DNA of 64,000 nucleotides from Pseudoalteromonas sp. MM1. GTDB taxonomy: Bacteria > Pseudomonadota > Gammaproteobacteria > Enterobacterales > Alteromonadaceae. The notes beneath the pieces are model-generated. The model searched no databases. It was given only the letters and a program-made list of their open reading frames with translations, and had not been told where the DNA came from. Both the position numbers and the translations under genes were made by a program. The DNA lies in the NCBI RefSeq assembly GCF_030296835.1, contig NZ_AP027922.1, forward strand, positions 992,001 to 1,056,000. Direction: 5' to 3'. Below are positions 7,272 to 9,142 of the stretch, piece by piece. Positions within the stretch are counted from its first letter, which is position 1, and each line of letters starts with the position of its first letter.

Positions 7272-7433
7272 TATAATAACGTTTAGTTAAAGCTTTATTA
7301 GTGCTAAACGCATATTACAACCGATTTTTTGAAATAGACTTTTCTCGCATCTATGTGGGTTTTGGGTGTATAATTTAGCGGTCGCTCAACAATGTTTGAG
7401 CATAATTTGTTGCTGATCAATAGGGGCTAAGCA

Positions 7434-7646
7434 ATGTCACTTTTTCTTCTTACATTTGGTTTATTAATTTTAATCGTGATAGCTATGGCTGTTGGTATGA
7501 TCGTGCAAAGAAAGTCTATGGCAAGTAGTTGCGGTGGATTAGGCTCGGTAGGTATTGATAAAGCCTGTGATTGTGACGATCCATGTGATAAGCGTAAAAA
7601 GCGTATGGCTAAAGAGCAAGCCTGGAAAGAAAACCAAATTATTTAA
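7434..7646 (+). CDS. nqrM: Na+-NQR maturation protein NqrM (DUF539)
   Basis: NqrM is a small membrane protein needed to assemble active Na+-NQR, thought to help deliver iron to the NqrD/NqrE site. The 70-residue product has one N-terminal membrane helix (about 3-25) followed by a cysteine-rich tail with Cys33, Cys45, Cys47 and Cys51 and then a basic end. This is the DUF539 signature. It has its own upstream gap of about 160 bases, so it may be transcribed separately from apbE; a terminator follows. Confidence 0.93.
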   Translation: MSLFLLTFGLLILIVIAMAVGMIVQRKSMASSCGGLGSVGIDKACDCDDPCDKRKKRMAKEQAWKENQII

Positions 7647-7662
7647 GCTGTAGCTTAATGAC

Positions 7663-7688
7663 AAAAAGCGCCTTTTGGCGCTTTTTTT
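7663..7688 (+). terminator. Intrinsic terminator after nqrM
   Basis: A perfect hairpin AAAAAGCGCC/GGCGCTTTTT with a TTTT loop and T-run, 17 bases after the nqrM stop. The A-rich 5' arm would also give a T-run on the other strand. Confidence 0.9.
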
Positions 7689-7892
7689 GTACCTGCAAAA
7701 CGCCTTCGCATCATAGTTTCCAAAGCAATCCAATCTAAATGTATTAGACCAAGGTCTATAGTTTAGTTTTTTTCACCTATTAGGTTTATTTTTCTCGTTT
7801 GTCAAATTGGAGCTAACACTCTAAAGTTTAACCATAGACACAGAGCAAGGCTCTAGTGACAAGCTTGAGGCAAGTTAGCCTCGCTGAAAAGA

Positions 7893-7978
7893 ATCTTTAT
7901 AAATGTGTGTGTAAAGATGTTGTCAGTGTAAAAGCAGCTCGACTTTGGTGGTGACCAACTGAGAGCTGTTTTATTTTC
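7893..7978 (+). repeat. Structured repeat unit 1 of 4 (candidate small RNA)
   Basis: First and most divergent copy. Hairpin I pairs ATCTTTA (7893-7899) with TAAAGAT (7912-7918) around a TGTGTGTG loop. A linker GTTGTCAGTGTAAAAG follows. Hairpin II pairs CAGCTC (7935-7940) with GAGCTG (7963-7968) and its loop holds GGTGGTGAC. A T-rich tail (TTTTATTTT) follows, as in an intrinsic terminator. The distance to unit 2 is 144 bases. Strand is taken from the terminator polarity. No ORF of useful length covers it. Confidence 0.7.
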
Positions 7979-8036
7979 TTACAACGCACATGTTTATGGC
8001 TTAGACCTAAATTGGTTAGCGTAGCTAACAAACTGA

Positions 8037-8119
8037 ATCTTTATATTGTGTGTGAAGATGTTGTCAGTGTGAAAGGCAACTCAAGGTCGGTGGTGACTGG
8101 TTTTGAGTTGTTTTTATTC
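8037..8119 (+). repeat. Structured repeat unit 2 of 4 (candidate small RNA)
   Basis: Hairpin I pairs ATCTT (8037-8041) with AAGAT (8055-8059). Hairpin II has a perfect 8-bp stem, CAACTCAA (8077-8084) with TTGAGTTG (8103-8110), and a loop with GGTGGTGAC, followed by TTTTTATT. The stretch after it (CCCTGCAATTGCCACG and so on to AAACCAAAA) is repeated almost exactly after unit 3, so units 2 and 3 together form a 113-base tandem duplication. Confidence 0.75.
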
Positions 8120-8149
8120 CCTGCAATTGCCACGTAGTGTAAACCAAAA

Positions 8150-8233
8150 ATCTTTATATTGTGTGTGAAGATGTTGTCAGTGTGAAAGGCAACTCAAGTT
8201 CGGTGGTGACTTAGCTTAAGTTGTTTTTATTCC
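8150..8233 (+). repeat. Structured repeat unit 3 of 4 (candidate small RNA)
   Basis: Nearly identical to unit 2 in its first 45 bases. Hairpin II pairs CAACTCAAG (8190-8198) with CTTAAGTTG (8215-8223) with one C/A mismatch, and the GGTGGTGAC loop and TTTTTATT tail are kept. It starts 113 bases after unit 2 and is followed by the same spacer as unit 2. Confidence 0.75.
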
Positions 8234-8262
8234 CTACAATTGCCACGCAGTGTAAACCAAAA

Positions 8263-8345
8263 ATCTTTATATTGTGTGTGAAGATGTTGTCAGTGTGAAA
8301 GGCGGCTCAATTTCGGTGGTGACTGAATTTGGGCTGTTTTTATTT
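8263..8345 (+). repeat. Structured repeat unit 4 of 4 (candidate small RNA)
   Basis: The 5' half matches units 2 and 3. Hairpin II differs on both arms: CGGCTCAA (8303-8310) with TTGGGCTG (8329-8336), all eight positions paired with two G-T pairs. The GGTGGTGAC loop and TTTTTATTT tail are present. It starts 113 bases after unit 3 and is the last copy. Confidence 0.75.
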
Positions 8346-8501
8346 GTGCTCCTTTATTTTCAACCTCATTAATATCCTTATCTCTACTCCTCAAGCCTCT
8401 TAAATATCAAATATCTATAAGCTAAACCTTTATTTTTTATTGTGTTATTTTTTATTAACAAAATAGCTGCGAAAGCTTAACGCAAAACTTTATATTTTTT
8501 G
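8346..8501. other. AT-rich spacer after the repeat array
   Basis: AT-rich sequence with no ORF or hairpin that I can support. It separates the repeat array from the promoter-like sequence upstream of the cyo region. Together with 7689-7892, also without a clear feature, it completes the roughly 1-kb gene-free stretch. Confidence 0.5.
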
Positions 8502-8529
8502 TTGAACCGAAAACTGTCTTTGTTATACT
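8502..8529 (+). promoter_or_regulatory. Candidate sigma70 promoter for the cyo region
   Basis: TTGAAC (8502-8507), a 16-base spacer and TATACT (8524-8529). Transcription would begin near 8536 and run into the small membrane ORF and possibly cyoABCDE. A perfect FNR-type site lies just downstream at 8565-8578. Confidence 0.45.
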
Positions 8530-8564
8530 CAGCATCGAACTTTCAGTAAGTTTTGAAAGTTTGT

Positions 8565-8578
8565 TTGATACGGATCAA
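8565..8578. promoter_or_regulatory. FNR-type binding site (TTGAT-N4-ATCAA)
   Basis: Both half-sites match the FNR/Anr/EtrA consensus exactly. The centre lies about 36 bases downstream of the predicted start of transcription from the 8502-8529 promoter, a position that favours repression without oxygen. In E. coli the cyo oxidase operon is repressed anaerobically by FNR and ArcA, so the placement makes sense. Confidence 0.55.
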
Positions 8579-8716
8579 TTCTCACTAGGTAAATGTGTGC
8601 TAGCCGGGTTTGATTGTATTTAGCACCTCGTTTTAGGGCTTACAGCAGCAATGTTTTTTAATTTTTCCATTGCGCGCTTAATTACTCTAATTTTGTTATT
8701 AGTCATTTAGTAGGTT

Positions 8717-9142
8717 ATGTCTTTGAACACACTTTCTTTGCATCATACAAATACGGCTTTTGCTTCTAGCAAACCGCAAACGTGTGAGCGCTTGAATAAA
8801 GCGGGCAAGGGCGTGTGTGTCGCTATAACATTATTAGTGTTTAATACGGTAATGCTGCTAAGTGGTGCATTAGAGGATGCCTTTCAGCTTGAAGCGCTGT
8901 TTAGCAATGGCTCTATTGTTGAGCCTGTTTTGCTGCACATCACGCAATTTTTAGCTCATCCGATCATATCTAGTCAGCTACTCATTGGCCTTTGCTGGTT
9001 ATTGTTCCATATTTTTCCGGCGCGTCGTGCTGGAATAATCCTTCGTAAAGCCGCTTTCGCTTTTCGCGAGGCAAAAGTACACCAACCTGTGTCCGCTGCA
9101 CATGGTTGTCGTGCTCCACCTAGCTTTACAGGTTGTCTGTAA
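8717..9142 (+). CDS. Hypothetical two-helix membrane protein upstream of cyoA
   Basis: The 141-residue product is not recognised. It has a polar N-terminus, a hydrophobic segment at about 32-50, a second at about 86-100 ending in a basic FPARRAG stretch, and a polar tail with three cysteines overall in its first and last thirds. The start at 8717 lacks a strong ribosome-binding site, so the call depends on ORF length and the membrane-like composition. It sits between the FNR-type site and cyoA in the same direction, and could be co-transcribed with the oxidase. A non-coding long leader is the alternative. Confidence 0.5.
   Translation: MSLNTLSLHHTNTAFASSKPQTCERLNKAGKGVCVAITLLVFNTVMLLSGALEDAFQLEALFSNGSIVEPVLLHITQFLAHPIISSQLLIGLCWLLFHIFPARRAGIILRKAAFAFREAKVHQPVSAAHGCRAPPSFTGCL

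Follow-up and report, generated by a model that had tools for sequence, protein, structure and literature searches.

Between the Na+-NQR genes and the cyo oxidase genes of Pseudoalteromonas sp. MM1, four tandem copies of a two-hairpin element are found, which raises the question of whether this array encodes regulatory RNAs and, if so, what is kept in them by selection and to which cellular response they belong. A first-pass annotation of the sequence had proposed multicopy sibling small RNAs, with selection acting on the RNA structure and on a fixed loop sequence. The window referred to below is the whole stretch of DNA that was analysed, comprising 64,000 nucleotides, and coordinates given without a locus are positions in this window.

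Architecture of the array

The window array consisted of four two-hairpin units on the forward strand, as delimited by alignment, covariance model, and fold (unit 1, 7893 - 7976; unit 2, 8037 - 8118; unit 3, 8150 - 8231; unit 4, the last one, 8263 - 8344), their starts coinciding exactly with those annotated at first pass. The spacing between units 2 to 4 was 113 nt, and 144 nt separated the start of unit 1 from that of unit 2. Every unit followed the same plan, namely hairpin I, a linker opening with GTTGTCA, hairpin II, and a T-rich tail. In the folds, hairpin I was indeed longer in unit 1 (7893 - 7918, forward strand; 26 nt), where it carried the GU-rich motif, than in units 2 to 4 (8037 - 8059, 8150 - 8172, and 8263 - 8285, forward strand; 23 nt), where it carried UUGUGUGUG. 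The linker motif GTTGTCA, located by sequence and family alignment, occupied positions 7919 - 7925, 8060 - 8066, 8173 - 8179, and 8286 - 8292 of the forward strand in units 1 to 4, respectively. Hairpin II, located on the same strand by fold and stem counts, was followed by TTTTATTTT in unit 1 (7935 - 7968), by TTTTTATT in units 2 (8077 - 8110) and 3 (8190 - 8223), and by TTTTTATTT in unit 4 (8303 - 8336), the latter hairpin being the most stable of the four. The DNA forms of the two motifs that recur in the units are TTGTGTGT and GTTGTC; in units of the window type, the GU motif forms part of hairpin I, and most of it is paired in the predicted fold.

Compared with dinucleotide shuffles, units 1 to 4 had z values of -4.04, -6.22, -3.95, and -5.98, whereby 0, 0, 1, and 0 of 200 shuffles each folded at least as well. 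The sequence GGTGGTGAC had been described as a nine-base loop, but in the structure used for counting its ends pair with each other at the top of the stem, which leaves only the four bases GGUG unpaired. The units had also been called terminator-bearing; a strict terminator scan of positions 7400 - 8800 returned 0 terminator-like sites (1.2 expected from shuffles), so that this label rests on the folds and the TTTTTATT-like tails. Downstream, a short open reading frame (8717 - 9142) lies between the array and cyoA, and an open reading frame of 47 - 53% identity was present at the same place in a deeper subgroup.

Promoter and upstream elements

A -35 hexamer TTGTCA (7799 - 7804) and a -10 hexamer TAAAGT (7822 - 7827), 17 bp apart on the forward strand, were located by promoter scan and array comparison ahead of a predicted leader (7834 - 7892, forward strand), the start of which was placed 7 nt past the -10 hexamer on the basis of promoter inference and fold. 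By itself, the promoter scan (7 sites versus 3.2 expected) would not single out 7799 - 7827. Alignment showed a stretch upstream that is common to both arrays of the genome, and the pattern TTGTNN-17-TAAA[GT]T was present without exception in the 42 arrays for which upstream DNA was available, representing 30 genomes; loci L038 and L056, with no real upstream DNA, and L014, L015, L018, and L058, where the upstream DNA was too short or the core was not matched, were set aside in this count. The array is thereby predicted to possess its own conserved sigma70-like promoter.

The -35 hexamer is overlapped by a T-rich promoter element (TTTTCACCTATTAGGTTTATTTTTCTCGTTTGTC; 7770 - 7803, forward strand), which was followed by pattern counts in the own genome and in the genus. 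With at most three mismatches, six copies were retrieved from the own genome (reversed control, 0), corresponding to the two arrays and four paralogous genes for TPR-like proteins, one of which is broken. Among 108 genomes of the genus, 42 contained the element (control, 0), namely 42 of the 44 genomes with arrays versus none of the 64 others; at two mismatches, it was absent from G023 and G037, both array-bearing. The exact promoter element, a search that misses diverged copies, was present in 11 named public records, all of Pseudoalteromonas, including P. fuliginea KMM 216, P. atlantica, and P. distincta.

Farther upstream, array comparison and a matrix of ACTU sites revealed an ACTU-like palindromic box (TAGACCAAGGTCTA; 7745 - 7758, forward strand), which may be bound by a regulator. 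The exact form TAGAC-N4-GTCTA was found in 25 of the 42 arrays (17 genomes), always 40 bp ahead of the -35 hexamer; the 17 arrays lacking it keep the hexamers and, among those inspected for it, the T-rich element as well. Written as TAGACYNNNGTCTA, the box had six occurrences across the own genome, i.e. at both arrays, at three TPR-like genes, and once within a coding frame. The matrix was derived from 8 sites printed in PMC5715377, several of which are uncertain predictions of that paper itself. With this matrix, 7744 - 7760 ranked first in the 64-kb window (14.1; next 12.3), as did the box of the second array in its locus (L012); the 8 matrix sites themselves scored 15.7 - 19.0, the own acs promoter 16.5, and the own actP-like promoter 16.5 and 15.8.

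This resemblance brings the CrbS/R (MxtR/ErdR) acetate regulon into consideration, although the acs and actP-like promoters of the strain match ACTU better than the array box does. Behind acs, which encodes acetyl-CoA synthetase, a gene for a LuxR-type response regulator was present (L105:3623 - 4273, reverse strand), with ErdR as its best family (E 4e-66) at 222.8 bits versus a family cut-off of 390; a CrbS-like fusion was not found by an SSF search, which gave frames of 498 - 582 amino acids only. The array box lies near -82, farther upstream than the ACTU of the acs promoter of P. fluorescens, which is given at -52 to -36 in PMC5715377. Control of the array by CrbR/ErdR may be taken as a lead, albeit one that is more doubtful than probable, and the ACTU-like, acetate-type box offers an alternative, unproven lead to the signal. 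The respiratory or stress link suggested earlier draws only on the genes that flank the first array (nqr and cyo); the second array lies between LysR and msrAB genes, and the other genes with an array-type promoter encode TPR-like proteins.

Distribution of the family

A blast search with one unit gave seven matches in the own genome, namely the four window units and three units on the opposite strand at about 1.745 Mb. The latter form a second array (L012), located between a LysR gene and msrAB. A covariance model built from seven units, applied with strict filters that may lose weak members, retrieved window-type relatives from 32 of the 108 genomes of the genus. Copy number and covariation within the genus, which the first-pass annotation had put forward for comparison, were as follows: the loci read contained one to six units per array, those with a single unit being partly cut by contig ends, and covariation was present in hairpin II. 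The window family is thus made up of homologous units, two or more in number, that lie between genes and have a conserved core. Two places recurred, i.e. the gap between NqrM and cyoA and that between LysR and msrAB. Where a contig end cuts the locus, a single neighbour was visible, and L015, L036, L040, L041, and L058 had none of the neighbours asked for. Since arrays at one place are orthologous and clade-bound, these counts do not represent independent events.

A search for the exact core pattern, which misses diverged copies, covered 295 genomes of the bacterial family, 16 of them from the own genus; matches occurred in 6, all within the genus, and the 279 others gave none. The units had no match in plasmid and phage collections. 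In agreement with the earlier remark that no named RNA family fits, the whole Rfam library gave 0 matches at the gathering threshold for the window and seven related loci; a permissive threshold returned four weak matches, with scores far below the gathering thresholds of those families, none of which was credible.

Conservation of stems and motifs

The best 150 of 170 model matches were aligned, representing 102 distinct sequences. Across these units, the sequence of hairpin I and GTTGTC(A) persisted, with ATTATTA replacing GTTGTCA in two units (L054 and L026). The linker had been reported as conserved, which holds for GUUGUC(A) but not for the remaining GTGT, absent in the deeper subgroup. 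Similarly, the loop described as invariant was identical in the four window units, but it was replaced elsewhere in the family: among the best 150 of 170 matches, GGTGGTGAC, a GGTGGATTCACTTCCATAAAG-like loop, or another short loop was found. The elements kept across the family are thus not the loop but the UUGUGUGU of hairpin I and the GUUGUC(A) of the linker. In three loci, the longer GGTGGATTCACTTCCATAAAG-like loop takes the place of GGTGGTGAC beside normal units (L017:1615 - 1836, L015:1614 - 1708, and L053:2415 - 2508). A CRP-like reading of TGTGA-N6-TGTCA, assessed by eye, was dropped, as the half-site is lost in units with GTGTAAGAT.

Pairing in hairpin II was assessed on 51 distinct sequences, out of 106 with the GGTGGTGA loop, over 15 pairs (765 cells). 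Of these cells, 96.9% were paired versus 88.2% in shuffles, 72 were changed on both sides versus 26.6, and covariation amounted to 0.436 versus 0.265; the number of pairs changed on both sides (7) was weakly above shuffles, 7 being reached in 41 of 500. The double change between A-U and G-C noticed among the window copies, where the stem changes while its pairing is kept, also held in the wider family, column pair 3/32 being GC in 30, AU in 16, GU in 4, and another combination in 1 of the 51 distinct sequences. Selection on the hairpin II stem, and with it the proposed selection on RNA structure, is supported by these comparisons. The types of hairpin I retain the AUCUU/AAGAU stem; its inner part, a TA/TG run, pairs in several registers, so that its covariation is weak and was not used as evidence.

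Permuted arrays and TPR-like genes

A second type of array, with permuted units, was retrieved by pattern search from 12 of the 108 genomes, namely eleven with the promoter element and G023. The eleven genomes have no window-type units and contain one copy of the promoter element each; in eight of them, this copy led straight to the array (six) or to a TPR-like gene followed by the array (two). A permuted unit consists of TTGTTGTC(A), a hairpin with a TTTGTGTGTTCT-like loop, and a T run, and retains GUUGUC and UUGUGUGU in permuted order. Nine further genomes had a single pattern match each. The match in G003 is a unit that follows a TPR-like gene; the other eight are probably fortuitous, given 21 matches in all in the reversed control. 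Window-type and permuted arrays had no genome in common, and the homology of both types rests on the common promoter element and the two short motifs. In 5 of the 12 genomes, the coding match to the TPR-like protein ended 10 nt before the first unit (from sequence in two, from coordinates in three), and a single permuted-type unit was also found behind another TPR-like paralogue (five read). The spacer between permuted units can form a hairpin GAGTCAC...GTGACTC (L131:1615 - 2060; by eye).

The own genome contained four TPR-like paralogues (L093:2234 - 7175; contig C1, about 2.176 - 2.181 Mb), one with an internal stop, each standing behind an array-type promoter element and none with a unit within 230 nt downstream. 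The protein, small and probably secreted, has weak TPR matches below the cut-off, one weak DUF5897 match, and a start that, by eye, resembles a signal peptide; among the best 120 of 168 matches, it is mostly named a hypothetical or orphan protein of Pseudoalteromonas. The gene was present in 46 of the 108 genomes of the genus, including 44 of the 44 genomes with arrays of either type, while the 62 genomes lacking it yielded no array. Of the 64 genomes without arrays, two had the gene, i.e. G003, with its single unit, and G055, with a distant match (E 3.6e-10). The co-occurrence corresponds to a Fisher p of 2.6e-28, a value that ignores shared ancestry.

The last hairpin was the most stable one in all 10 permuted arrays folded out of the 12 (-13.6 to -17.5 versus -7.0 to -11.7 kcal/mol; 21 rows, since some arrays are covered by several loci). 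Among 35 window-type arrays, a count without L015, L053, and arrays cut by contig ends, the trend was weaker: the last hairpin was strictly the most stable in 18 (21 with ties; 10.5 expected), and the last unit had the more G+C-rich stem base in 26. In arrays that are related by descent, this trend fits a model of read-through of the internal units and a final stop.

Proposed function and alternative explanations

The window array may best be read as a variant of CcsR-like arrays, consisting of sibling sRNAs that are transcribed together and would pair through G/U-rich motifs. The original proposal of multicopy sibling small RNAs would thus survive, together with selection on hairpin II, without its supposed fixed element, as GGTGGTGAC varies. 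The promoter (7799 - 7827), probably controlled via the TAGAC box and the T-rich element, would direct the synthesis of the leader and the four sibling sRNAs as one RNA of about 510 nt, in which each unit would close in a stem-loop with a U tract. The internal stem-loops would be partly read through or cut, yielding RNAs of about 80 nt, and UUGUGUGU and GUUGUC(A) would pair, probably aided by Hfq, with C/A-rich stretches of target mRNAs. The pairing step is suggested by the GU-rich motifs and the precedent of GcvB. A search of the own genome for 17-mer complements (at most three mismatches) gave 8 matches outside the arrays versus 9 in the reversed control, and therefore no target signal. The array would further be part of a small regulon, the other members of which would encode TPR-like proteins with a signal-peptide-like start; in one subclade, the array stands directly behind a gene of this kind. 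What the sequences themselves show is the conservation of promoter and motifs, the recurrence of neighbours, the co-occurrence with the TPR-like gene, and the covariation of the stem. This full model of promoter-driven sibling sRNAs, pairing, and a TPR-like regulon, as judged from sequence, is considered somewhat better than an even bet.

A broader and more tentative view, to which slightly less than even weight is given, is that of a genus-specific RNA-protein regulon, in which free-standing arrays would descend from a module made up of the promoter and 3'UTR of a gene for a small TPR-like protein, and in which one lineage would have rebuilt the sRNA, setting its two GU-rich motifs in permuted order and on another fold. 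If true, the RNA would be defined by its motifs rather than by its structure, and it would serve the same response as the protein. A conserved fold can be a misleading guide: here the two short motifs persist, whereas stems and loop vary or have been rebuilt.

Repeated GU-rich hairpins might instead soak up an RNA-binding protein or a C/A-rich small RNA, in a manner similar to CsrB and CsrA. The survival of two short motifs under permutation, with up to six repeats per window-type array, would suit such a sponge, as would the lack of a long complement in the own genome; the stem-loop with a U tract in each unit fits separate short RNAs better, and no protein is known to bind UGUGUGU hairpins in sponge fashion. 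A sponge of the known CsrA kind was rejected, as no GGA motif occurs in 7834 - 8346, and sponge activity in general is regarded as unlikely. It is quite improbable that the array is a mere run of terminators or a barrier to read-through separating the nqr and cyo operons, with no product that acts in trans: its position between two respiratory operons and its hairpins with U-rich tails agree with this, but the array has its own conserved promoter, a second array exists at an unrelated place, and the invariant hairpin I and GUUGUC(A) would be needless. Still less probable is a REP-like or transposable DNA element that multiplied without RNA function, since tandem amplification and variable copy number are offset by the two recurring positions, the single oriented promoter ahead of unit 1, the pairing kept by double changes, and the mere two sites that a blast query of one unit finds in the own genome. 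Lastly, the units might be short peptide genes (ATG TTG TCA GTG TGA/TAA, i.e. MLSV-stop, in window units), a frame present in 110 of the 147 units counted, but this reading was rejected and is scarcely credible, because the frame runs to differing lengths in the deeper subgroup, because permuted units lack the ATG at this position, and because no ribosome-binding site is seen by eye at a usable distance.

Comparison with known systems

Several bacterial RNAs invite comparison with the sibling sRNA reading, namely CrcZ/CrcY of Pseudomonas, which act on Crc, the single-copy and longer RNA GcvB, the tandem NgncR_162/163 of Neisseria, and CcsR1-4 of Rhodobacter sphaeroides, which lie in a row. The promoter type and sequence of CrcZ/CrcY are unlike those of the array, for which control by CrbR is only a lead. 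According to PMC5715377, CrcZ/CrcY are raised by the CbrAB two-component system on poor carbon sources, and PMC9100948 places CbrA and CrbS in a single kinase family. PMC5715377 uses the term small RNA for CrcZ/CrcY only, and PMC5436829 contains it only within a reference.

Within the genus, the Csr sRNAs Pf1-Pf3 of P. fuliginea are multicopy sRNAs too, but they carry 25, 21, and 9 GGA motifs (PMC11882849), compared with 0 in the predicted array transcript. The literature on sRNAs of Pseudoalteromonas and Alteromonadales, as far as accessible, yielded these Csr papers of P. fuliginea and nothing on the present RNA family. Hundreds of sRNAs have been predicted from RNA-seq by the P. fuliginea group, as stated in PMC11882849, and the array RNAs may be among them. 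P. fuliginea carries the promoter, and a gene-editing system has been published for this species (PMC12628799).

The GU-rich pairing region R1 of GcvB provides a precedent for the array motifs, being a conserved single-stranded stretch that pairs with almost all targets (PMC3536696), whereas the GU motif of the array sits in a hairpin; the lack of an Rfam match gives no sign of homology between the units and GcvB. NgncR_162/163 are sibling sRNAs with a metabolic role (PMC9973317 and PMC5362039), differing in that there are two copies, in another bacterial class, with known targets. CcsR1-4 are homologous sRNAs processed from the 3'UTR of ccaF1 with involvement of RNase E and are probably under the control of the promoter of ccaF1, a small-protein mRNA, as described in PMC8625941; CcaF1 is a DUF1127 RNA-binding protein, according to a reference title therein. 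The permuted arrays resemble this system in that, in 5 of 12 genomes, a small-protein gene immediately precedes them. The gene concerned encodes a TPR-like protein with a signal-like start instead of a DUF1127-type protein, and the arrays in the clade of the window are free-standing behind the same type of promoter. The likeness proposed here is one of arrangement. As sibling sRNA arrays occur here both behind a coding gene and free-standing, with a common promoter, the origin of such an array becomes traceable.
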